The notes beneath the pieces were generated by a model. The model searched no databases. It saw nothing but the letters and a program-made list of their open reading frames with translations, and was not told the origin of the DNA. This document shows positions 217 through 19,387 of a stretch of 21,644 nt of DNA, piece after piece; position 1 is the stretch's first letter, and each line of letters begins with the position of its first letter. Source of the DNA: a virus; the IMG/VR virus record IMGVR_UViG_3300002231_001584, positions 1 to 21,644 of that record; one strand, given 5' to 3'. The position numbers and the translations under genes were made by a program.

Positions 217-1287
217 TTATTGTGGCCAATTTTCAAAGAAAGCCTTTGGCAATGTATATAAATATATATCTGTTAAATATTCATGTCCATCTATACTATT
301 ATTATCTCCAAGCCAAACGATACTATATGTAGAACTTGGCACTTCTGTTTCATAATTATTTACTAATCCCCAATATTCATCAGAGCCATCTATTTCTGTT
401 CCTACTCCCAATCCGGTAGTATACCCACTCGTTCCTAAATAAAATTCCAACTTTTGCCTTGAATCTGTTAAAGTATCTTCAGCAAAGACCCAGTAAAGAG
501 AATTAATATCATAAGAAGTAAAAGTTTCTCTAACTTCCCTTGCAGCAAATGTACTTCTCAAACCGCTTACATAAAGAGAATTATTCGCTATAGCAGAACT
601 TGCTCCACCAGAGGCAACCCAATCTACAGCTCCATCAGCAGGAAAATGCCATTCATTGACAATCGTAGCATAAGAATTAATATTAGCTCTATCTATCTTA
701 TAAATAGCCATAGTTTCTATAGCACCATTCCAAGTCTGAGAAACATGCCCATTATGTATCTTAAAATGAATATAATCACCAGGGCTAACTATAGTACTCC
801 CTTGATTTGGAGTTCCCCAAGTTCGCATAGTAGTATCTATATAGCTACCTGTTGTATATTTAAGAGAAGTAATGCTATCCCATGGAACATCAGTATATTG
901 TCCTTGTCCTAATGAAGATTGATAAGTTCCTATGTTATTTATTCCAACTATTTGAGGCCAAAGTCTCAACCATTCTTCATTCTGAGTAGATGACCATATA
1001 CTATCAAAATCTACTACAGCTAAGAAAAAATCTCCTTGATCATAATCATCTGTCGCACTTATCCATCCAAATTCTTCTCCTAAAGCAAGATTAGCAAAAC
1101 GTAATTTACCACCAGAAGCTGTTAAATCACCCGGGGTTCCGCTAGTCGTAATACTTGAAGGAATAAGATTATCTTCAAAATCCATGTATTCTACTAATTC
1201 CCATGGACTACCACCAACCATAATCATCTGACTATCCTGAGAAAAAACAAAACTTGATATAGCTAATAATAAAAATATCTTCTTCAT
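217..1287 (-). CDS. Exported beta-rich protein of unknown function in the structural block
   Basis: This is a 356-residue protein whose ATG overlaps the stop of the upstream gene (ATGA), so translation is probably coupled. Residues 1-17 are a Sec signal peptide (MKKIFLLLAISSFVFSQ), with cleavage likely before Q17. The mature part is rich in Trp, Tyr, Gly, Ser and Thr, with almost no cysteine, as in jelly-roll or lectin-like beta domains. I do not recognise a named family. Its place at the end of the virion gene block suggests a tail, fibre or appendage protein. The signal peptide instead suggests export into or across the host membrane, which is unusual for a virion protein. A carbohydrate-binding role is only a guess. 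Confidence 0.8.
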   Translation of the reverse strand: MKKIFLLLAISSFVFSQDSQMIMVGGSPWELVEYMDFEDNLIPSSITTSGTPGDLTASGGKLRFANLALGEEFGWISATDDYDQGDFFLAVVDFDSIWSSTQNEEWLRLWPQIVGINNIGTYQSSLGQGQYTDVPWDSITSLKYTTGSYIDTTMRTWGTPNQGSTIVSPGDYIHFKIHNGHVSQTWNGAIETMAIYKIDRANINSYATIVNEWHFPADGAVDWVASGGASSAIANNSLYVSGLRSTFAAREVRETFTSYDINSLYWVFAEDTLTDSRQKLEFYLGTSGYTTGLGVGTEIDGSDEYWGLVNNYETEVPSSTYSIVWLGDNNSIDGHEYLTDIYLYTLPKAFFENWPQ

Positions 1288-1749
1288 CGGTCTCTATAAG
1301 TTATAGTTATTGAAAAAACATTTACTGAATTTCCAGAAGTAGTAATTACTGGTGTTAAAATGTCTCCTGCATTAATTGAAGTAACATCAAAAGTTGTAGA
1401 TGTTACTCCTGTAGTAATAGCCGTAGCATCAGAAGTCATAATATCTGTACCAGCAACAATAGGCGTAGATGATGATCGTTGCTCAATATTAAATGCAACT
1501 GTTAAAGCACCTGTATAAGCATAGACCTCTGTAATAGTAATATTTTTTGGTACTTTCCATCCGGGAAAAATATCTGTTGCAAAGGTAGATCCTGTCTTAC
1601 CCCAAGAGATGCTATGTGTATTAATTACATAATCTGTAATAGCTGTTCCTGATCCATCCCAGAGGAATAGACTATCAACATAAAATTTTTCTCGTCTGCC
1701 CAAAAGAGATAGAACAAAGAATGAGTAAAAGTAATATTAATTTTTTCAT
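1284..1749 (-). CDS. Small exported beta-rich protein, reading frame broken by one extra base
   Basis: The gene starts at the ATG at 1749-1747, which overlaps the upstream stop codon (ATGA). From there it encodes MKKLILLLLILCSISFGQ, a clear Sec signal peptide, but this frame stops after about 25 codons. The downstream body (from TREKFYVDSLFLWDG to the stop at 1284) lies in the +1 frame. Removing one base from the T5 run at 1686-1690 (A5 in the gene) joins the two into a 154-residue protein, and the corrected length is divisible by three. A TTG start at 1703 for the body alone has no ribosome site. The body is Thr/Ser/Val-rich and beta-like (STTFDVTSINAGDILTPVIT), possibly a small fibre or decoration domain. 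The function is unknown. Confidence 0.75.
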
Positions 1750-2048
1750 GGTGCTATACTCGGTTGGTTGTCGCCCTCGACCTTCATATAGGCATCAGAG
1801 GCAACGGGTTTTTTCTTGAGAGCAGTACCTGTAGAAGACTTTACTATAACAACAAATTTTGCTGTTAAAGCTATGTTTAAGGAATAAGTACCATCTCCAT
1901 TATCTGTATATATTCCTATTAAAGTAGAATTAGTATTCGCGGCATAATCAGCAAGCTCATCACCTGTATTCCAAGTATGTGCCTCCATAATATATCCCGG
2001 AGCAGCACGACCTGTATTCTTATTTAAAATTGTTCTTTCATCTGTCAT
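1746..2048 (-). CDS. Small phage structural-block protein, unknown function
   Basis: This encodes 100 residues with no signal peptide or membrane segment. Start and stop both overlap neighbours by ATGA (at 2045-2048 and 1746-1749), so it is a tightly coupled member of the leftward operon. A motif of the type GIYTDNGDGTYSLNIALTAK looks like a beta-hairpin segment of a small immunoglobulin-like or neck-associated domain. I do not recognise the family. Its position, between the neck/adaptor gene and the exported proteins, fits a minor head-tail joining or tail protein, but this rests on context only. Confidence 0.75.
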   Translation of the reverse strand: MTDERTILNKNTGRAAPGYIMEAHTWNTGDELADYAANTNSTLIGIYTDNGDGTYSLNIALTAKFVVIVKSSTGTALKKKPVASDAYMKVEGDNQPSIAP

Positions 2049-2742
2049 TTTCTTAAAGCCCCCACTCCAATAGGTATTGAAACTCTTCCTCGTGTACCTC
2101 GTTTGTTATTAGCACTTCTTGCAACATTCCTGAAAAATTCAGCCTCATGTGATCTGGCTAAAGCAATCTGTTCTTTATCTTCAGCTAATCGCATCTTTAC
2201 ATAATAAACTAATGCTCTTGCCAAACGATCATCAATGGCAATGGTATCTGTAACAGAAGTAGGTGTAGAGACTTGTGTTGAATACTCAAGCATGATTGCA
2301 GCAGTATCAGCAACAGTAGGTGTTAAATATAATTTTCAACTCTTCGTGAAGAGAAAGGATAGCAATTGTTTGTCCAGAGATATAATATTTATATGTATTT
2401 AAATCAGTAGCCAAAATATCCTCACTAAATAATTATTATTTGATCATCATCAGTAACAGAGTCAACAGAAGAATCTTGTATAAGATTTACATTCTCTATG
2501 AGATCAATCTTCTGATAGATGCTATTATCAGAGTCCACAAGCTCATATACTCCATTAAGTTTTTTCATCGTACTTGGCAAACTATAAAAACGTGTATTAG
2601 CCACTATATCAATCGTGCTTCGTGTAGCATCTGATGGTGTTAAATCTGCTATAGCAGAAAGACCATCATTTATAAATTGTAGTATTCTGGCTTCTTCGCG
2701 AGAGCCAACTTGTTCCATAATATTAAGAACGGTTATTGACAT
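2045..2742 (-). CDS. Head-tail connector/neck protein, two frame-breaking extra bases
   Basis: The ATG at 2742 has a ribosome site (AAGGAGAAGCTA) inside the end of the upstream gene. The first frame encodes 105 residues and stops at 2425. A second stretch in the +1 frame (SEDILATDLNTYKYYISGQTIAILSLHEEL) and a third (KLYLTPTVADTAAIMLEYS through the end at 2045) clearly continue it. Deleting one base in the A3 run at 2427-2429 and one in the T4 run at 2333-2336 gives one protein of 231 residues. The pattern resembles phage adaptor/neck proteins: an early helical part, a YYI-SG beta hairpin, then helices of the type ALVYYVKMRLAEDKEQIALA. It probably sits between portal and tail. The family call is from recognition of this pattern, not from a search. 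Confidence 0.78.
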
Positions 2743-3622
2743 TAGCTTCTCCTTGTGCTTGCTTGATAGCCATAATTTGAGAATTACTATTTATGAAATT
2801 ACGGACATCAGCCTCAGCTTGTTTAAAATATTGATCAGATTTTTGAACATAGATATTTACTGCCTCGCTGAAGCTACGACCCATAGCAATCTCAGCCATC
2901 GCACGCTGTACTTCTTGAGCAGCAGCTTGAGTTGTTATCTGAGATAATTCAGAGTCTTCAGCCGTAAGCTGATCAGCGACAGATTTTGTTAAGGTATCTC
3001 CCATAGCACCAGCATCAACATGAATAAATTGAGCTGTATCACCCATAAATGCCCTCGCACTTTGCAATGCTCTGTCAGCAGTACCTTTATTTACCAGTTT
3101 ATCTGTATTTAACGTAGAGAAATAACTTGATAAAGCGGCAAAGTCTAATGCACGTGCATAATTTAAAATTATATTTTCTATATGTTTATATGATATTGCA
3201 GCATCATCGGTAGTACTTGTAATAACAGGAGGAGTAACAGTTGTAATCAAGCCCGGATATACTGCTGTAGGAGTAGGCTTGATAAAAATCAATCCACCAC
3301 GTACAAAATAAACAGGAAAATAAGCGGTAGGCGCATAAAGGCTTCCCGAAGTATCTAACTGATTTGAGAGCGAAGCAGGAACCTCATCGCACGTAATATT
3401 TTTTCTTCTTACCTCAAGGACTTCATCAATATTAGAAACAGCTTGTCCATTCCCATCAGTAATGGCTGACCCATCGGTACCGAGGAAATGTAATAATTTT
3501 CTTGGGATAGAAGAGATTGCATAGACAGAACCAGCATTTAAAAAATTTACAACAGAAATATCTGATGTTTCGGTAGTCTCACTCTTTGTTACATCTCTTA
3601 CTTTTGATAATAAAGTAGCCAC
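2723..3622 (-). CDS. Phage head/neck structural protein
   Basis: This encodes 299 residues starting at the ATG at 3622. The end overlaps the start of the next gene by 20 bases. The N-terminal part has the look of phage neck or head-completion proteins (short helices such as VVNFLNAGSVYAISSIP, then a beta section including FPVYFVRGGLIFIKPTP). The C-terminal 90 residues are predicted helical and rich in Ala, Gln and Glu, with a coiled-coil feel. It lies between the capsid genes and the adaptor, just after a strong terminator. A role as a head-tail joining component is likely, but no catalytic motif is visible and the exact family is not certain. Confidence 0.75.
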   Translation of the reverse strand: MATLLSKVRDVTKSETTETSDISVVNFLNAGSVYAISSIPRKLLHFLGTDGSAITDGNGQAVSNIDEVLEVRRKNITCDEVPASLSNQLDTSGSLYAPTAYFPVYFVRGGLIFIKPTPTAVYPGLITTVTPPVITSTTDDAAISYKHIENIILNYARALDFAALSSYFSTLNTDKLVNKGTADRALQSARAFMGDTAQFIHVDAGAMGDTLTKSVADQLTAEDSELSQITTQAAAQEVQRAMAEIAMGRSFSEAVNIYVQKSDQYFKQAEADVRNFINSNSQIMAIKQAQGEANVNNRS

Positions 3623-3635
3623 GATTCATCTCCAT

Positions 3636-3657
3636 AAAAAAAAGGGGGCAAGCCCCC
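3636..3657 (-). terminator. Intrinsic terminator between capsid and neck genes
   Basis: Read leftward, a G/C hairpin (GGGGG, CTTG loop, CCCCC; arms at 3644-3648 and 3653-3657) is followed by eight T residues (complement of 3636-3643). It sits in the gap between the 3674 and 3622 genes, so it should reduce transcription of the neck and tail genes relative to the capsid genes. Confidence 0.85.
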
Positions 3658-3673
3658 TAATTCAATTAACGAT

Positions 3674-4282
3674 TTAGGCTACTGTTCCCCATAGCTCAAT
3701 ATATATTCGTCCAGCATCATAAGTGCCAACTGTTCCTGCTTCTCCAGATGTTAAATACAAATATTCATTTGCGGCTGGTAAAGCAGTAAAAGGCTTAACT
3801 GTTCCAATAGCATGGGCACCAGCAGAAGTAACTAAAGCAGTTTCAGTTAAAGTCGCCACACCAGCATCATAAGCGCCTGTTGCTTCTGATGCAGAATATA
3901 AATCAATATCATCTGCACCGGTCGTAGGAACTATTGCACATCCCATCTGACCTTTGAAAATTATACCATTAATAGCAGTTGTAATTTGAGCAATATAACT
4001 TACTCCGGTATCACCTATAATATCTAAATCTGTAGTTGTAGACTTCAACCCTGCCAAATCAATGACAATTGTTGTCTTTATAATATCGCCTATTTTTATA
4101 ACAGATGTTTGAATAGCAGCAGCAGAGGCAGTAATAACACTTGAAGGTGTTACCAATGCCGCTTGAGCTGAAACATCGCAGGCTGAGTTTAATTCAGCAA
4201 TAGTCGCTGTAACAGTATTCAGCGACAAAGCATCTTTTATTGTATTATTAAAACCGTTTCCAACGGCAGCAGCTAAAGGCAT
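3674..4282 (-). CDS. Probable capsid decoration or minor structural protein
   Basis: This encodes 202 residues, very rich in Ala, Thr, Ile, Gly and Val, with one cysteine near the N-terminus and one in the middle. A repeated theme of Ala/Thr-rich strands (ATIAELNSACDVSA; TTTDLDIIGDTGVSY) and a C-terminus of the type AGRIYIELWGTVA are typical of small phage head proteins made in high copy. It is the second small gene after the major capsid gene, and a strong terminator follows it, consistent with high expression together with the capsid. The function is inferred from position and composition. It could also be a head-fibre base protein. Confidence 0.7.
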   Translation of the reverse strand: MPLAAAVGNGFNNTIKDALSLNTVTATIAELNSACDVSAQAALVTPSSVITASAAAIQTSVIKIGDIIKTTIVIDLAGLKSTTTDLDIIGDTGVSYIAQITTAINGIIFKGQMGCAIVPTTGADDIDLYSASEATGAYDAGVATLTETALVTSAGAHAIGTVKPFTALPAANEYLYLTSGEAGTVGTYDAGRIYIELWGTVA

Positions 4283-4311
4283 ATCATTTCTCCATTTTTA
4301 ATTTAAGTTAA

Positions 4312-4331
4312 AAGGGAGATTGCTCTCCCTT
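4312..4331 (-). terminator. Hairpin between two capsid-associated genes, weak terminator
   Basis: An eight-base-pair perfect stem (AAGGGAGA at 4312-4319 with TCTCCCTT at 4324-4331, loop TTGC) lies just after the stop of the 4349 gene. In the leftward direction only a short TTTT-A-A tract follows, so it is either a weak terminator or an mRNA end-protecting hairpin. Confidence 0.5.
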
Positions 4332-4348
4332 ATAATTTTTCTGAAAAA

Positions 4349-4789
4349 CTATATATTAGATTCTTCAGTAGTGAGAAATTCAATTACAACGCGTGCCTTT
4401 GCCGTAGGAAGAGAAGAGTTAGCCCCTCCTAAATTCCATGCAATAACAGTACCTGCGGCAACAACATCAGCCCATTCAACATATTTTGTATTAGCCGCAT
4501 TAGCAGCTAAAACTTTAACATCATCTGTCAAATCAGTAGCTCCTGCAACATCAATTGCCATAGAAGTCGCACAAGCGAATGCAGTTGTACCATAGTTCAA
4601 AACTGTTAAGCATTGTACGACAGATTGAACAGGAAACCGATAGATAACATCACCATCAGTAACATCACTCATATCATCAATCTCAACCACAACGACCTTC
4701 TTATACAAAGATAGACCGTAAGCATTCTCATTTTGAGCAATAGTACCCGGAGAGAAGTGTGTGTCTCTATTTTTTATAGTTGTACTCAT
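4349..4789 (-). CDS. Small capsid-associated protein, likely decoration protein
   Basis: This encodes 146 residues directly after the major capsid gene. The start at 4789 has a strong GGAGG ribosome site. The protein is beta-rich and compact: VVVVEIDDMSDVTDGDVIYRFP, then alternating Val/Ala strands and a C-terminal ARVVIEFLT strand. There is no signal peptide, membrane segment or enzyme motif. Head decoration or head-stabilising proteins usually sit at this place, right beside the capsid gene, and have this size. The role is an inference from synteny. Confidence 0.72.
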   Translation of the reverse strand: MSTTIKNRDTHFSPGTIAQNENAYGLSLYKKVVVVEIDDMSDVTDGDVIYRFPVQSVVQCLTVLNYGTTAFACATSMAIDVAGATDLTDDVKVLAANAANTKYVEWADVVAAGTVIAWNLGGANSSLPTAKARVVIEFLTTEESNI

Positions 4790-7261: not shown

Positions 7262-9546
7262 TCACTTTTTGGGCTTGTTGTCAACCTTTTGGGTTTTGTC
7301 TTTTACGAAGTCTTTTATCTTTTTCTTACCATAATCGACTTCTTGCTTAAACTCTCCTGCCAATAAACTCATCCTTGATTGATTATCAACAACATCTTTT
7401 CGCATCTCGCTGACCATACCAGCCTCCTTGACTTTTCATCCTCAATTCAAGCAGTTGTCTCTCAAGAGTCTCAATATCACCTTCACGCTTTTTGATTGCT
7501 CCTTCCAGACCTTCCACCTGACTACGAAGACCAGAGTAGATGCTTTTACGTTTCATCAGACCTTCTTTATCCTGAATATCTGTATGGCGAATAAATTCTA
7601 TGTCATCAATGATGCCAGACTCGAACCAACGGAAATATTCTTCTAACAAAGCCCACCTGTTGAGAGGCATAGTAGAACCAGCTACATAAGCTACATTATA
7701 TTCAGCAGATTGAAGATCGTTGTATCGTCCTACTTCATCACCCAAATCATTATACATCGGGATATTAACTTCTTCAGAGATACTCTTTACCTCGCCTGTC
7801 TCAGCATTTGGCTGAACGACTTTAAAGACTTTGTTTATTCCATAGGTGGCTTGAGCAAATTGATTTACTATAAGCCCAAGTTTCTCCATACCCGGCTCAA
7901 AAATATTAATTATCCAGCCACGCAGTCTTCGTGTAGAGAACTCATCATTCGCTAACATACCTCGATATGTCTCTGGTTGATCTTGGATGATACCCATAGC
8001 AGAACCAAACATACCAATCAGATACTCAATGTCAGATTGTCCTTTTTCTACAATGTTATAAAAGGCTGTGTTAAGTGGCATAGGCTGTATGAACTCAGGC
8101 TTAGTGCCATCACCTAAATTATTCCAATATAATCTAGCGCCAGCAACAGACATATTTGTATCCCATTCTTCATCATCCACTTGCCCTTGCTGTATCAAAG
8201 CTCTAAGGTTACTACCGAGAGAAGCATTATGAATCATAATCTGATGTGCTCGGTTTATTTCTTTTTGCTTTCCAATGGCAGGTGAGATAAAACTCATCGG
8301 GAAAGGAGTACCTGTAAAAATTGCAGGGATAGAAAATAATGGGTATTCGCTGATAGGTTCTGGCAATAGATATTCATAGAGAAGCTGATCGCCTACACTA
8401 CAATTTCTTTGTATACGTGTCTCATAATATGGTATTGCTGAAACGATAAATTCTTTTACAGATGGCTCGTCTTTTAGTAATTCGTATTCTTCTTTTGTAA
8501 TATTTCGTTGTTCTACTTTTGTGGAGTTTTCTCTGGCTTGAGAGATGAGAAGTTGTCTTCTATCGGCTAATGCTTTCTCTGCATCTTTACCGGCTTTCTC
8601 TAAATCAAAGTCATAGCGAGCCTTTATTATTTTCCCTTCTTGAAGCTGTTGCCCTAAATCATTTTTCAACTCTTGTAATTCAACATCGATCTCCATCTTC
8701 ATCTCAGTCATCTCTATCTCAATGGCTTTGTTGAACTCAGCTATATCCTTTGCTGAAGGAGGTATAGCAATAGTAACATTGACATAATCAACTTTTACCT
8801 TGCGATATTTTTCGTAATAATCCAACATATCACTAATAGAACCATCGATATTATATCCTTCGGTTATATCTTCTGGTTGGATGCTTAGGCTTTGTACTAA
8901 ATCTCGTTGGGAATAATTTTCAAATGTTGTTCCGAAACTAGCTTTTTTAATCTTTTTCTCATATTGTGGGAACATATCGAGTAGAGCTTGCCGTGTCTTT
9001 CTCTTATAGATGATCTTGGCAGAAGAGTCATCACCATAAGGATCACTGCTATCTGGTGCTTCGTAGACATCGAAAGCATTCTCCCACACTACGCGTACCT
9101 CACCAAGACCTCTATCACCATCAGGGTCTTGGATAACATGGAAATATCCTTTTGACTTAGTGATTATATCTGTTACTACCAGACCAAGAATAGATTTTCC
9201 TTTTGACCCATGCCATACATATTCTGTTATAGCAGCAAAGACAGCTGCAAAAATCAGTATCACTACCATCACGACCAACAGCTTGCCATCGTGGATTATT
9301 AGCAGTAAGGAAATATTTCATTAGCTCTACAGCAGGAAGAATCATGTTAATAATGAAATCGGGCATCCCGGCTGAATCTAATTTTGTCTGTAAGTCTGAA
9401 TTTATCTGATCGTTTAAAGCAAAGTCATAGCCCTCTTGATTTGTGAGGTGCCATTTTTCTCGGTGGGTGGTTTTGAATGATTGGAATAATGTATAATTCT
9501 CGTAGGCTTTATCCTTGTTTGATTTCCTTCTCTTTGTATCTAACAT
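7262..9546 (-). CDS. Portal protein (P22/podovirus-like), two frame-breaking extra bases
   Basis: The corrected gene runs from the ATG at 9546 (GGAGAACATAA ribosome site) to the stop at 7262 and encodes 760 residues. One extra base in the A5 run at 9249-9253 separates the first 99 residues from the main frame. A second in the T4 run at 7433-7436 displaces the last 60 or so codons (ELRMKVKEAGMVSEMRKDVV to KPKK). The order is: N-terminal wing segment, PDFIINMILPAVE helix, stem and crown. A long charged coiled-coil insertion lies near residues 267-340 (EMTEMKMEIDVELQEL). Motifs SAMGIIQDQPETYRGMLAND and STRRLRGWIINIFEP near the stem are typical of P22-type portals. It forms the dodecameric DNA entry ring that binds TerL. 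Upstream is a small Cys protein and TerL; downstream is the scaffold. Confidence 0.87.
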
Positions 9547-9731: not shown

Positions 9732-11366
9732 CTATCTGAATTGCCAAGTATTGGTAACAGTTTTTTTAAATTTCTTCTTTAATGATACTGTCAATTTTCT
9801 GTTTTGGTTGGGATAAGCTCTTGAGACTCCTATGTGTAAAGCATCGATTGTATCATCATGCGCCATCTTTGCACCGAAGGTAACGATCTCATTTTCCAAA
9901 TCGTACATAGTATTTTCTCTAATAAAGATTTTACTGGCTAAAAAACGCTGTCCAAGACTCGTATAAATACGATTTACCTTATCAGTCTTGCCAACAGGCT
10001 TAACAGGAATGACAATTATATCCCATCGGTTGAGAGTATTTCTTCTGTCATCGAGGGCTTGGAAGACAGAGCGTGTCATAGCCACATCTTCAACAGCGGC
10101 TGAGATGACATGGTAAGAATTATAAAAATCTATGATATAATCAATTACCCCTTTCCCACCTATCAGCTCACCAGAAAGATTACGTTGACCATAAGTAGGG
10201 ATATTCCTTCTGCGTTCATATTGCAGAACATAAACTTCATTTTTAGAATTTAAAGCGAATACTATTATTACCGAGAAATCAGCATGCTTGGTATTTATAT
10301 CTGTTGCCGGATCACAACCAATAAAAATGTTTACCTGCTCACGCTTGCCATTAGGATGTGCAATCCAATTCTGATCATCCGAACGGACATATTCAACATC
10401 ATGGTATCTAATGACTTTTCTACCTAAAGGAGCCGTTTCATCATTTTGTACCCGAAGTAAATATTCCTGATAATATCCTTGTACCCCTCTGGGGCTTGTG
10501 GCTATCTGGGCTTTCCTTGAAGCAAGATATTCTTTTGTTAGTCTCTCTGGCCATACCAAATTCCCTCTTTCATTGATAGCAGGATAATATAATATTGTCC
10601 ATGCCAAAACCCTGCGGAGATCAGGATCATCTTTGATCTTTTCATATCGTTCGATCATAGATTGCGTGAAACCTGCATAATGGACAGGGGTATTTATGAA
10701 GATAAATTTATTACCTAATTGCCCTTGCTCAATGCCGGGCATCAAAGCATTGGTGATGGTATCAGCAAATTTGTCGCGTGCATTATCTGTGATGGTATTC
10801 TGCTCATTCTCAGCATCATCAGCGATAATACAACTATAACGCTCTGCGCCAGTATCAACAGAAGACATCGTATCACCACGCAAAGAAGTAAGGTTCGAGG
10901 CTGATAGCATCCTGTCATCATATTTTGTCGTAATATCTTCCGCAGTCCATCGGCGACCCTTGAGATTACCAAAGACTTCAATGATCTTCTTATTAAACTC
11001 CAGCATGTCTTTGATGTATTGCGTATTATTTTGAGATTTTCTTTGAGATGATGACACCCAACCAATGTGCTCAGTCCTTCGTTGTCCAATACCCCATTCT
11101 TCTGCTACTTTAGAAAAACAAAGCTTTCTAAGGATATGTGCCTTGCATAAGGTAGTCTTAGCAAAGTCTCTGGTAGCAATGAGGGCAATAGGCTTTTTAT
11201 CTAATTTGTCAAATTCTTCCATCACCTCATAATGTGCCGGTGGAGAAGGAGCTTTCTGGAAATCGGGAAGAAAAAGTTTCCCAAAAGCAATCGTGGACTT
11301 AGATGCTTTCAGGAGAGCTTTTTCCATTTTGGATAGGTTGGGAAATTTTAGGTTTAGATTACTCAT
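9732..11366 (-). CDS. terL: Terminase large subunit (ATPase and nuclease)
   Basis: This encodes 544 residues, a normal TerL length. It pumps DNA into the prohead using ATP and cuts the concatemer. The N-terminal ATPase domain has a variant Walker A, ATRDFAKTT (residues 64-72, Lys70), a Walker B CIIADDAE (179-186, acidic residues 183, 184 and 186) and a coupling motif FINTP (224-226 core). The C-terminal RNase H-like nuclease has acidic residues in GCDPATD (D352, D356), AVEDVAM (E426, D427) and HDDTIDAL (D504, D505, D508), all three expected clusters. The frame is intact. Upstream are TerS and a small Lys-rich gene; downstream the portal. The ATPase motif reads R-x-F-x-K-T rather than the classical GK[TS], as in many podovirus terminases. 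Confidence 0.95.
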   Translation of the reverse strand: MSNLNLKFPNLSKMEKALLKASKSTIAFGKLFLPDFQKAPSPPAHYEVMEEFDKLDKKPIALIATRDFAKTTLCKAHILRKLCFSKVAEEWGIGQRRTEHIGWVSSSQRKSQNNTQYIKDMLEFNKKIIEVFGNLKGRRWTAEDITTKYDDRMLSASNLTSLRGDTMSSVDTGAERYSCIIADDAENEQNTITDNARDKFADTITNALMPGIEQGQLGNKFIFINTPVHYAGFTQSMIERYEKIKDDPDLRRVLAWTILYYPAINERGNLVWPERLTKEYLASRKAQIATSPRGVQGYYQEYLLRVQNDETAPLGRKVIRYHDVEYVRSDDQNWIAHPNGKREQVNIFIGCDPATDINTKHADFSVIIVFALNSKNEVYVLQYERRRNIPTYGQRNLSGELIGGKGVIDYIIDFYNSYHVISAAVEDVAMTRSVFQALDDRRNTLNRWDIIVIPVKPVGKTDKVNRIYTSLGQRFLASKIFIRENTMYDLENEIVTFGAKMAHDDTIDALHIGVSRAYPNQNRKLTVSLKKKFKKTVTNTWQFR

Positions 11367-12492: not shown

Positions 12493-13177
12493 TTATACTC
12501 TCTCTATTGGTGGTGGTGGGTTGACACTTATATTGGACTTCGGTTTATCTTTCGGTTCTCCTTTAGTAACTTCAGCCACCTTCTCCTTCTTAACTTTAGG
12601 AGGGTCGATCTTCTCTTCCTACTTTTTTAACATCAACCTTCGCGACATTCTCTCCCTCCACCTTTTTTACTTTTTGTTTTCTTTTCTTCTTGCCATTTAT
12701 TATCTCAACTAACCTCAACCCACAAACGCTGGCGATGGCAGTAAGCAGTCTCAGGTTAAGTGTCATATTGGTGTAGATGGTATTAGCATTAGGCTTACCC
12801 GTTTTATACATATGCCCAAATTGACCAGCATTATAACTAAGATAAAAAGTATATCGAAGAAGAAATGCTCCCTTGAAGTTAAGACTTTTCTGGAAAGCCT
12901 CAATATTATTAGAACAACCCTTGCTCATCTGGAATTTCAACTCAGTAGCAAGAGCCGCATGGGTGCAAAGAAGATCATATAAAACAGATGACAATTCCTT
13001 TTTAAAAGCGGGGCTGAAACGAAGGTTGCTGATGATAGACTTCTGCATCACCCTTAACACAGCACCCACTTTGTACGATAACTCCAGATATAAGAAATCT
13101 TTCATCATAGTGTTGTCAGGAATTGTAATTTGTTTTTCTTCTATCTTTTTCTGAAAAGCATCTAAAGTTTGTAACAT
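12493..13177 (-). CDS. Unknown helical protein with lysine/proline-rich tail, one extra base
   Basis: The ATG at 13177 follows an AGGAGGATAG ribosome site. The first frame stops at 12596. Removing one base of the CC pair at 12618-12619 joins KVDVKKVEEK to IDPPKVKKEKVAEVTKGEPK and on to the stop at 12493, for a 227-residue protein. The first 150 residues are mostly helical (DTMMKDFLYLELSYKV style), with an FGHMYKTGKPNANTIYTNM motif in the middle. The tail from about residue 165 alternates Lys, Val and Glu and is likely disordered. I do not recognise the family. It lies between the RepL-like gene and TerS in the leftward operon. Confidence 0.65.
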
Positions 13178-13185
13178 CTATCCTC

Positions 13186-13635
13186 CTATTCTTTGTCTTT
13201 GCTGTAATATGACATTAGTACGTCAAAACGTCTAATCTTCTTTTTCTTAGCCTTTGCAGAATCAAATAAAATATTTGGGTTTACCTGAAAGCCAAGCTCA
13301 AGCTCTTTTAAAATATCATTCTCTAAAAGCCTTGCTATGACAGAATAAACAGTGCCACGCGATACTTCCGTATGGCGAATGACCATCTCTTTTGTAACAA
13401 CAACACGATTGAGATGATCTCTATTCTCAATAAAATATAATAATACTTTCATTGCTTTATCGCTAATCAATCCAACAGCATACAATAGATTGTCAAGCCA
13501 CACTTTCTCCCATCCTATATCAACATCATAATGTTCAAAGTGTCCTGTCATTACTATCTCACCCGTTTCAGGATCAACAAGCTCTTTAAAGCCCATAATC
13601 TTTTTTCCTTTTCCAAGGGTCTTGTCATCTATCAC
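13186..13635 (-). CDS. RepL-like winged-helix protein
   Basis: The start is the GTG at 13635, five bases after GGAGG within a complete AGGAGGTGAT ribosome site. An earlier in-frame GTG at 13641 lies inside that site and is not used. The product has 149 residues. It begins with DPETGEI and then WEKVWLDNLLYAVGLISDKAMKVLLYFIENRD. A winged helix follows: VVVTKEMVIRHTEVSRGTVYSVIARLL with NDILKE and a final FQVNPNILF strand. This is the layout of the Firmicute plasmid replication protein family RepL (Pfam RepL), in which a wHTH binds DNA. It could act as a replication initiator or as a transcription regulator. Its place close to the non-coding divergent region is notable. Family recognition is from memory of the pattern, without a search. 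Confidence 0.72.
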   Translation of the reverse strand: MIDDKTLGKGKKIMGFKELVDPETGEIVMTGHFEHYDVDIGWEKVWLDNLLYAVGLISDKAMKVLLYFIENRDHLNRVVVTKEMVIRHTEVSRGTVYSVIARLLENDILKELELGFQVNPNILFDSAKAKKKKIRRFDVLMSYYSKDKE

Positions 13636-13646
13636 GATCACCTCCT

Positions 13647-14075
13647 TTATAATGGTATCGTAAATTCAAAGTCTTCAGAAGCATAATCTTTTTCATCATC
13701 GTCATATATTATTTCAATATCTGGACGTGAGCTAATCAATCTGTTTGTTATCCACTTCTTATAATCATTGTTTCTTTTCTCTAAATCTTTCTTGATATCG
13801 TCTCGCTTAGACTCACTACGTTTCCATACAATGCTCTTAGGAAGATCACCTTCAAAGTTCTTCATCCAACTACTCGGAAGGCGAGGATGGCTAAATATAT
13901 CAGGACGTTTAACTTCTTCTTCTTCCTCTGGAATAACAAAAGTATCAAGATTATATGACAATCGACTGCCTTCTGGAAAGTTCTTTCCTATATTATATCT
14001 CTTTCCCTTCTCGTCTAAATAATAAAACGAACCATCATCGTCTCTGAATATCTTATCTTCACTTATCAATGACAT
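13647..14075 (-). CDS. Acidic hypothetical protein
   Basis: This encodes 142 residues with a GGGAGGAAGTA ribosome site before the ATG at 14075. It overlaps the stop of the upstream gene by one base (TAATG). The protein starts with a short strand-like part (FRDDDGSFYYLDEKGKRYNIG), has an acidic run EEEEEVKRPD, then a helical basic patch (KRSESKRDDIKKDLEKRNND) and ends acidic (DDDEKDYASEDFEF). No cysteines, membrane segments or enzyme motifs are seen. It is the second gene of the leftward operon. The function is unknown. Confidence 0.6.
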   Translation of the reverse strand: MSLISEDKIFRDDDGSFYYLDEKGKRYNIGKNFPEGSRLSYNLDTFVIPEEEEEVKRPDIFSHPRLPSSWMKNFEGDLPKSIVWKRSESKRDDIKKDLEKRNNDYKKWITNRLISSRPDIEIIYDDDEKDYASEDFEFTIPL

Positions 14076-14230
14076 TACTTCCTCCCATCTTTAGGATAAA
14101 CATATTTACATCTGCCACAAACAGTCCACTCTCTACCTTTAAATTCCCATGGCTTAGATCCCTTCGCAGGGGTATGACCAAAATGCCTACATATAAAATT
14201 TAAAAACCGCTTCCACCTATCCTCTCCCAT
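14075..14230 (-). CDS. Small zinc-ribbon-like protein, first gene of the leftward operon
   Basis: This encodes 51 residues from the ATG at 14230 with an AAAAGGAGTGTT ribosome site. A Cys/His cluster near residue 18 (CRHFGHTP) and a CGRCKY pair near residue 42 form a plausible zinc-binding module, with conserved-looking PWEFKGREWTVCGRC between them. This pattern occurs in many small phage zinc-ribbon proteins. The stop overlaps the next start (TAATG). It is the first gene downstream of the divergent non-coding region, so it is probably made early or constitutively with this operon. Confidence 0.65.
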   Translation of the reverse strand: MGEDRWKRFLNFICRHFGHTPAKGSKPWEFKGREWTVCGRCKYVYPKDGRK

Positions 14231-14256
14231 AACACTCCTTTTATTTAATATACTTC

Positions 14257-14286
14257 AATATAATACAATTATATCTAACCTTCCAA
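14257..14286 (-). promoter_or_regulatory. Leftward promoter candidate 1
   Basis: Reading leftward, TTGGAA (14286-14281) and TATATT (14262-14257) are separated by 18 bases. The -35 is part of an AATATTGGA repeat. Transcription would start about 20 bases before the 14230 gene, giving a short leader with its ribosome site. Sigma-70 type by sequence only. Confidence 0.5.
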
Positions 14287-14289
14287 TAT

Positions 14290-14319
14290 TCTATACATAT
14301 TTTATCCCCTTTTTTCCAA
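14290..14319 (-). promoter_or_regulatory. Leftward promoter candidate 2
   Basis: A second TTGGAA (14319-14314) and TATAGA (14295-14290), again with an 18-base spacer, lies directly upstream of candidate 1. The same AATATTGGA repeat supplies its -35, so the two may be tandem copies of one promoter module. Confidence 0.45.
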
Positions 14320-14323
14320 TATT

Positions 14324-14341
14324 TTGGACATTTATGTCCAA
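14324..14341. promoter_or_regulatory. Perfect palindrome, operator candidate
   Basis: TTGGACAT-TT-ATGTCCAA is a perfect 8-base inverted repeat with a two-base centre. It overlaps the end of the third TCCAATATT repeat and lies just upstream of the leftward promoter candidates. This is the size and symmetry of a dimeric repressor or regulator site. Confidence 0.55.
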
Positions 14342-14621
14342 TATTTTATACTACTTTTTGAGTCATAGCAAGGATCTAACTACCTCTCTCTCTTAGTATT
14401 ATAGAGGAGAGTTTTAAAAAAGGCTTTTTTCACTTTTTTGAAACCGACGATAAACTCATTCACTTTGTATAATCGTAAACTTACATTATTATTTTAGTAT
14501 AAAAAAATTATACTTATTCCGAACCAATATTTATATCACAAATTTTATAAAAATTTTGTCGCTTGAGAATGTATTCATCTATGGTACCCCCAAAATCGGG
14601 TTTTACTTTTTGCCTTTTAGG

Positions 14622-14650
14622 TTGAAACTCGATTCAAACTATTCTATTCA
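14622..14650 (+). promoter_or_regulatory. Weak rightward promoter candidate
   Basis: TTGAAA (14622-14627) and TATTCA (14645-14650) have a 17-base spacer and lie just upstream of the first rightward gene. The -35 is part of an inverted repeat TTGAA-6-TTCAA. The -10 matches poorly, so this is a low-confidence call. Confidence 0.3.
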
Positions 14651-14668
14651 TTTAATTAGGAGTCTACC

Positions 14669-14968
14669 ATGGCTATTCAAGAACTTGCGTTTATTAATGA
14701 AGAAGGAAGACCAGTTAGGTATCTTGCCGATCTTACAGAGATTGACAAGACCAACTGGAGCGAAGATCGTATTGCCTATGAGAAAGAGCTTACCAAATTG
14801 GGGTGTGAAGAGCCCCACTGGGAGCAAGTCTCTCTAAACGGGAAAGGAACCGTGAGAGAGCGGACGAAACGGGCAATCATCAAGTCTACCACCCTTGCGG
14901 CAATTGTACGCAAGCAAGCCTTTAAAGACGGGCTTGAGGAGAAAGAAGTCTTCGATCCTATTGATTAA
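14669..14968 (+). CDS. First rightward gene, small conserved-looking phage protein of unknown function
   Basis: This encodes 99 residues. The ATG at 14669 follows an AGGAG ribosome site. The gene uses more G and C than its neighbours (for example CGG, GGG, GAG codons). The sequence has an N-terminal FINEEGRPVRYLADL, a charged middle and a strongly basic helical C-terminal region (RERTKRAIIKSTTLAAIVRKQAF) that could bind nucleic acid or a protein partner. It is a stand-alone unit: an intrinsic terminator follows directly. As the first gene after the divergent promoter region it is expected to be expressed early and strongly. I do not recognise a family. Confidence 0.75.
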   Translation: MAIQELAFINEEGRPVRYLADLTEIDKTNWSEDRIAYEKELTKLGCEEPHWEQVSLNGKGTVRERTKRAIIKSTTLAAIVRKQAFKDGLEEKEVFDPID

Positions 14969-19274: not shown

Positions 19275-19359
19275 GGAGAGATGGCTGAATTGGCTAAAGC
19301 ACCCGGCTGTAACCCGGTAGTACCCATTGAGGTTGAAGGTTCGAATCCTTCTCACTCCA
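19275..19359 (+). tRNA. tRNA-Tyr (anticodon GTA), class II
   Basis: The 85-base gene has acceptor arms GGAGAGA and TCACTCC (one mismatch) with discriminator A, a D-arm, and the anticodon loop CTGTAAC with GTA at 19309-19311. It has a long variable arm (including ACC-CATTGA-GGT) and the T arm GAAGG-TTCGAAT-CCTTC. The CCA end is not encoded. A 5' C-T mismatch in the anticodon stem may be a sequencing error. Confidence 0.88.
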
Positions 19360-19387
19360 CAAAATTCATTAATTAACAAAAGGAGAA

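Follow-up and report, generated by a model that had tools for sequence, protein, structure and literature searches.

Direct repeats 22 bp apart are found upstream of many RepL genes of plasmids and phages, and such an array stands at the head of a leftward phage operon that contains a RepL-family gene and leads to the terminase. The stretch of viral DNA analysed here (21,644 nucleotides, hereafter the window) takes up positions 1–21644 of a linear record in IMG/VR that is 25,342 bases long. The best-supported reading is that RepL, taken over together with its repeat array, would act as a regulator of the leftward operon, and we assign to it a probability of about 0.45.

The RepL gene and its operon

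The genes of the window, with the ORFs as chosen in the analysis, run leftward up to position 14230 and rightward from 14669. In the leftward block RepL comes third; the order of the ORFs is as follows, with small ORFs between the presumed small terminase subunit (TerS) and the large one (TerL):

14075–14230, minus strand: the operon's first ORF, encoding 51 aa that include cysteine pairs; weak zinc-ribbon match (0.0082, under the cut-off)
13647–14075, minus strand: acidic protein, 142 aa; no useful Pfam match, best PHROG 0.0071, of unknown function
13186–13635, minus strand: RepL-family winged-helix protein, 149 aa; PF05732 match; GTG start at 13635, GTG at 13641 possible
12596–13177, minus strand: MazG-like protein, 193 aa; resembles 3160–3762 of the related contig L007
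11822–12481, minus strand: presumed TerS, from its place before TerL and its homologues in 64 fetched loci
9732–11366, minus strand: TerL; phrog_38, 1e-61

The gene described as RepL-like in the earlier note is real, and its coordinates agree with the better of the two possible GTG starts, 13641 and 13635. The latter, which gives the 149-residue protein, is the likelier one because GTG 13641 falls, by eye, within the Shine-Dalgarno-like AAAGGAGG. The comparison with the Pfam RepL family that the note had proposed gave a clear match to PF05732 (E 1.8e-17, 63.7 bits against a cut-off of 20.3), covering residues 11–136. No rival family scores higher: the second-best Pfam match, FUR (7.7e-5, 23.3 bits against its own cut-off of 23.1), covers only the winged helix at residues 61–117 and is far below the RepL score. 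A search of NCBIfam returned no matches at E ≤ 1, and PHROGs gave only weak ones, the top two being “transcriptional regulator” (0.025) and “DNA binding protein” (0.028). By tblastn, 150 plasmid records were matched at E ≤ 0.1, 123 of them staphylococcal, and an annotated RepL lies beneath the match in 14 of the 20 plasmid rows among the matches listed; the same search against phages matched only four records at E ≤ 1, two of which are one and the same phage. At the C-terminal motif described for RepL, hydrophobic-N-P-X5-G (PMC5779722), the window protein reads VNPNILFDS, where the Asn-Pro pair is kept and Ser replaces Gly. The assignment of the protein to the RepL family is sound.

The structure prediction proposed in the earlier note yielded the expected winged-helix core. 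The AF2 model, built from five sequences, is confident only in the winged helix (pLDDT 85–93 at residues 61–120, mean 63.7 overall), both ends of the protein not being modelled. VIA places the model closest to solved winged helices of the Fur and CRP types (Z up to 9.9; rmsd 2.2 over 78 residues), and Foldseek alone gave no match at E < 0.001; the VIA matches inform on the fold and on nothing beyond it. By homology and from the model, RepL is a predicted DNA-binding winged helix.

The earlier note placed the gene between an acidic protein and TerS, within a leftward operon. The operon setting holds, as RepL lies within the leftward block leading to the terminase, and the acidic protein is present upstream (13647–14075); the downstream neighbour is the MazG-like gene and not TerS. 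The 193-aa product of this neighbour has no useful Pfam match itself, and it is 26% identical over 135 aa (E 1.6e-12) to the protein encoded at 3160–3762 in the same operon of L007, which matches Pfam MazG at 1e-5. The presumed TerS has no useful match in Pfam or PHROGs. A portal gene is recognised on the leftward side (phrog_156, 6.3e-21), and a joint scan of 33 proteins from the window record and from L007, L011 and L015 gave single matches to SU10_MCP, P22_portal and SU10_adaptor. On these structural-gene matches the virus would therefore be a tailed phage, perhaps a short-tailed one. The portal gene is apparently split into two overlapping frames, 9157–9546 and 7386–9278 (window 7386–9546), by a frameshift or a sequencing error, and a tRNA-Tyr gene (anticodon gta) is located in the rightward arm at 19275–19360.

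Repeats 22 bp apart upstream of RepL genes

The 22-bp spacing was first noticed in a comparison of intergenic regions, as repeats before RepL in the Alteromonas schitoviruses PT11-V19 (V19; −126/−104) and R22Y (−131/−109). The direct-repeat test covered up to 400 bp upstream of RepL, with lags from 12 to 60 in two sets and from 12 to 100 in 35 upstream regions. Lag 22 was the best of lags 12–60 in the first set of 20 upstreams (mean 13.6 vs 9.93 for all lags) and again in a later set of 14 (14.43 vs 10.26), the latter hand-picked for variety and not fully blind, since the spacing was known before they were fetched and the score was fixed after a palindrome test had failed, on the same upstreams. 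Over the 35 upstreams, which are partly related (Priestia, Selenomonas, a staphylococcal group and four from one Arsenophonus plasmid) and in which L011 is counted twice, the lag-22 mean is 13.89; lags 12–100 outside 21–23 and 43–45 average 9.78 (sd 0.28, maximum 10.51). The lag-22 mean of 122 random segments, taken from 17 fetched loci and the window's leftward side with overlap with RepL upstreams allowed, is 9.75. Contig L013, a near copy of the Pseudoalteromonas phage HS1, and L014, with too little upstream sequence, were left out of the test.

Taken individually, 14 of 21 upstreams in the first group and 11 of 14 in the later set reach p < 0.05. The ten of the 35 that do not are those of L007, L011 (two anchors), HS1, pONE430, Providencia and C. 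helveticus, together with three of the four from the Arsenophonus plasmid. The first copy is found between −150 and −100 in 20 of the 28 upstreams with positions, the other seven of the 35 all being without signal, and the typical placing of the repeats is about 120 and 100 bp before the start. Single cases range from the plasmid pSN2 (22-bp-spaced repeats, p 0.002) and the Vibrio phage 1.233.A (a pair 23 bp apart) to HS1, whose upstream has no 22-bp repeat (p 0.62). The Campylobacter coli plasmid pCC2228-1 (L124) has two identical 14-mers 22 bp apart. It has the same RepL accession as its relative pWestmill 11, another C. coli RepL plasmid, which a 2024 paper (PMC11389370) describes as being without tandem iteron repeats. 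The inovirus Inovirus bajarodino 61 (L103) has an exact 14-mer repeat, also 22 bp apart, at −185/−163. The occurrence of direct repeats 22 bp apart before many RepL genes, in plasmids as well as in phages, is new here; closed journals aside, none of the papers listed for RepL, or for RepL with late genes, could be recognised as describing such repeats.

Tandem palindromes were considered as a general RepL site and rejected. Palindrome pairs with at most one mismatch and a spacing of 20–24 bp occur in six of the 20 first upstreams (expected 0.03); only one of the later 14 has such a pair (expected 0.01), the seven other spacing classes being found in none or one of the 14 each, so that palindromy is not general for RepL sites. 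The window passes this test only when two mismatches are allowed. A dyad common to the window, V19 and R22Y, KGACWNNNNWGTCM, was noticed post hoc and not used, as it is absent from L007, L011 and L015 and occurs elsewhere in V19 too.

In the window, the array occupies the divergent region ahead of the leftward operon; positions are given relative to the first ORF:

14337–14351, minus strand: repeat copy 1, GTATAAAATATTGGA, at −121
14315–14329, minus strand: repeat copy 2, GTCCAAAATATTGGA, at −99, 22 bp from copy 1
14282–14296, minus strand: repeat copy 3, GTATAGAATATTGGA, at −66, 33 bp from copy 2, overlapping the first hexamer of the promoter-like site
14324–14341, no strand assigned: dyad of two 8-bp arms around 2 nt, lying between the first two repeat copies (p 0.05 against 100 shuffles); it scores as a terminator-like stem too
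14257–14286, minus strand: weak sigma-70-like site, TTGGAA-18-TATATT, 9/12

At lags 21–23 the repeats of the window have p 0.012 against 500 shuffles; the next-best matches to the copies within the window contain three mismatches, and of 425 stretches of 400 bp across it only those over 14282–14351 reach this lag-22 score. The copies lie about 660 to 716 bp before RepL; the gene that they directly precede is the first of the operon, not RepL itself. The best pairs in the relatives are placed at −125 in L007 (p 0.33) and at −119 of the first ORF in L011 (p 0.12), neither significant alone. The distance that is kept seems to be that to the first gene of the transcript, significantly so only in the window. 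Matched stretches of 22 relatives lacking RepL have a mean lag-22 score of 9.68 vs 9.78 for all lags, the anchors coming from simple gene calls and those of L059 and L093 not being true operon heads. Two of these 22, L030 and L032, reach p < 0.05, and their predicted presumed TerS proteins are identical over the part compared. Few parts of the window are as rich in A+T as the repeat region (GC 0.269, with 11 of 425 stretches as low). Within 14150–14720, four sigma-70-like sites were found on both strands against 2.4 expected, the promoter being weak and near chance.

RepL in related loci, other phages and plasmids

A scan of IMG/VR with TerL gave 80 loci, the best of more, and PF05732 was matched in none of 79 new TerL relatives (0 of 50 and 0 of 29), many of them short. 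Scans of viral contigs with RepL queries, one of which gave nothing, led to L007, L011, L013, L014 and L015, and one with a gene read as RusA led to L007 and L015; the name RusA was given by eye, and the gene has no Pfam family at E 0.01 in either contig. Bacterial genomes, scanned twice, yielded no more loci of this kind. The RepL of L007 (TerL 69% identical; PF05732 5.6e-19) has 51% identity to that of the window, and the one of L011, found by the RepL query, 60%. In both contigs the gene is at or near the head of an operon running into TerL; in L011 it is the second ORF, or the third if the 88-aa ORF at 1101–1367 counts as a gene. The L007 relative (884–1382) is interrupted, its C-terminal part carrying on in another frame.

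The operon of L015 (TerL 48%) has extra front genes and is headed by the gene of a 177-aa protein in which Pfam recognises no family at E 0.01. Aligned with the RepL profile over 125 columns, this protein reaches a probability of 71.8 and a score of 36.3; the best of 150 shuffles scored 19.9, and among 106 other operon genes two RepL genes scored 314 and 220 and the next 20.2. Its sequence INPKLIARG agrees with the RepL motif described in PMC5779722, and the protein is probably the product of a very divergent RepL-like gene. Judged by sequence, the place of RepL at the operon head is hence not unique to the window, being found in L007, L011, the divergent L015 and the two Alteromonas schitoviruses. 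Among the 22 relatives without RepL, the presumed TerS is one of the first three operon genes in 18, the fourth in L027 and the seventh in L017; small reverse ORFs broke the operon call in L059 and L093.

V19 and R22Y encode RepL proteins 26–27% identical to that of the window (PF05732 2.1e-26 each) as the first gene of a block leading to TerL, which is contiguous in R22Y and spans the ends of the linear record in V19. The gene is labelled hypothetical in the V19 record, and the R22Y record is without annotation. The annotation of V19 includes DNA polymerase I, primase, helicases and two RNA polymerases; for R22Y, a DNA polymerase I, a primase and two RNA polymerases are reported (PMC11705849). 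A second gene with a RepL domain, of 78 aa, directly follows RepL in each of them (L002 12415–12651 and L006 1275–1511; 1.6e-5 and 2.2e-5).

In L014, RepL (PF05732 1.4e-22 for the record) heads a same-strand block that contains a DnaB helicase (PF03796 2.8e-56), with TerL about 9 kb on. The genes of HS1 (PF05732 2e-19) and 1.233.A (PF05732 1e-7, with HTH_36 scoring higher) belong to replication modules, one gene before a gene annotated as primase/helicase or having a primase-helicase domain, and in L013 a helicase gene adjoins RepL. Inovirus bajarodino 61 has RepL (PF05732 9.3e-29) together with a separately annotated replication initiator. Phage RepL genes occur, then, in replication modules and also apart from them. 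The P2-like phage FLC5 (L125) has a RepL-like ORF44 (1292–1801, PF05732 5.6e-6), which adjoins the portal gene, points to it and lies near the terminase genes. Among plasmids, repL is the sole annotated gene of pSRD77 (1471 bp) and of pCC2228-1 (1307 bp), with the repeats upstream. The Arsenophonus plasmid L105 contains four RepL genes in a row (1001–4772).

Possible roles of RepL at the operon head

If RepL is a regulator of the leftward operon, the protein, a RepL relative with a presumed DNA-binding winged helix, would probably bind the repeats at 14282–14351, a site suggested by the enrichment of the 22-bp spacing before RepL genes. Copies two helical turns apart would be bound on one face of the DNA, and RepL would, by repression or activation, set the activity of the promoter reading through RepL, the MazG-like gene, the presumed TerS and TerL to the structural genes, its own gene included, thereby timing or limiting late expression. 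The overlap of copy 3 with a weak promoter-like hexamer would fit repression. This reading is favoured because the repeats, at the distance typical of RepL, precede the operon's first gene instead of RepL, and because RepL occurs also in phages with replication genes of their own. The Salmonella island protein SEN1990, which would act on expression and not on copy number, is an analogy in its favour. Against it are the lack of a significant repeat in L007 and L011, the weak promoter, and the plasmid-like parts and A+T-richness, which would suit an origin too; nor is running into TerL a proof of a regulator, since the block of L014 does so with DnaB. The earlier note had supposed recruitment as a transcription or a packaging regulator: the repeat position and the presence of RepL beside other replication genes in phages favour the former, and nothing supports the latter.

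A plasmid-like origin is the next most likely reading: RepL would bind the repeats of the divergent region and start replication, in the manner supposed for the plasmid proteins, perhaps as the sole initiator of the virus. It would agree with RepL and upstream repeats being the whole annotated content of pSRD77 and pCC2228-1, with the placing of RepL in L014, HS1 and 1.233.A, and with the A+T-rich region; it would also agree with the 25-kb window record, in which there is no DnaB match. No replication gene was recognised beside RepL, but the record is a fragment, and DnaB matches were obtained in four of 11 records searched, all of them longer relatives lacking RepL (L007, L011 and L015 are short records without one). 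Three genes of the window's early arm are common to fetched relatives (13, 6 and 7 loci). Because the longer relatives have DnaB and the early-arm genes are shared, a separate replication module is likely to lie past the end of the record. Moreover, V19 and R22Y have many replication genes besides RepL, and the inovirus has an initiator annotated separately from its RepL. GC skew changes sign at the divergent region of the window, and it was discarded as origin evidence, as the same change is seen in 16 relatives of the 17 tested, none of these 16 having RepL; the 17th, L015, was mis-split by the gene call. Both activities could be combined if RepL started replication at the operon head and coupled it to late transcription. 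Repression of their own promoter is common among plasmid initiators that bind iterons next to it, and the parts required are those of the regulator and the origin; such a dual role has no evidence separate from theirs, is less simple than either and appears improbable. The least probable case is that of a recently acquired passenger gene that does nothing for the operon, with repeats that arose by chance. The 79 TerL relatives without a PF05732 match, the p of 0.012 for the window repeat alone and the non-significant repeats of L007 and L011 would be in line with it, whereas the place kept in L007 and L011, and divergently in L015, its recurrence in V19 and R22Y, and a repeat distance that fits the RepL family argue against it.

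More widely, and tentatively, RepL may be a largely iteron-binding family that recognises direct repeats spaced by two helical turns and placed at a fixed distance from the gene that opens the transcript. With the protein and the repeats at the head of the terminase operon in at least two distant phage groups, a plasmid-type Rep–iteron switch might time late genes. If the 22-bp repeat is common, much of the RepL family would have a binding site open to testing. For phages, such a switch would be an instance of plasmid replication control being reused for the timing of late genes. The window suggests a plasmid control module put to use in a phage, either as a switch or as a starting site for replication.

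Compared with known systems, the window shares the family and the 22-bp-spaced upstream repeats with RepL of the pSN2 group, which is the replication protein of a 1.3-kb plasmid (PMC5703833), whereas the window gene keeps company with MazG-like, presumed TerS and TerL genes, is third in its operon and has the repeats before another gene. V19 and R22Y resemble it in having RepL first in a block leading to TerL, with repeats 22 bp apart, and differ in the low identity, the 78-aa RepL-domain neighbour and the virus group. HS1, L014 and 1.233.A are alike in the PF05732 match and differ in their placing in replication modules and, for HS1, in the missing repeat. SEN1990 of the Salmonella island ROD21, a winged helix annotated as RepL, left the island copy number unaltered and reportedly affected oafB expression (PMC10655114); it is without the Asn-Pro pair of plasmid RepL, which the window protein has. 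RepL of phage P1, whose origin is placed inside the repL gene (PMC9948254), is likened here by name and as a phage protein with a role in lytic replication. In the pSN2 record (L116), the RepL gene is labelled aminoglycoside nucleotidyltransferase ANT4, which looks like a wrong label.
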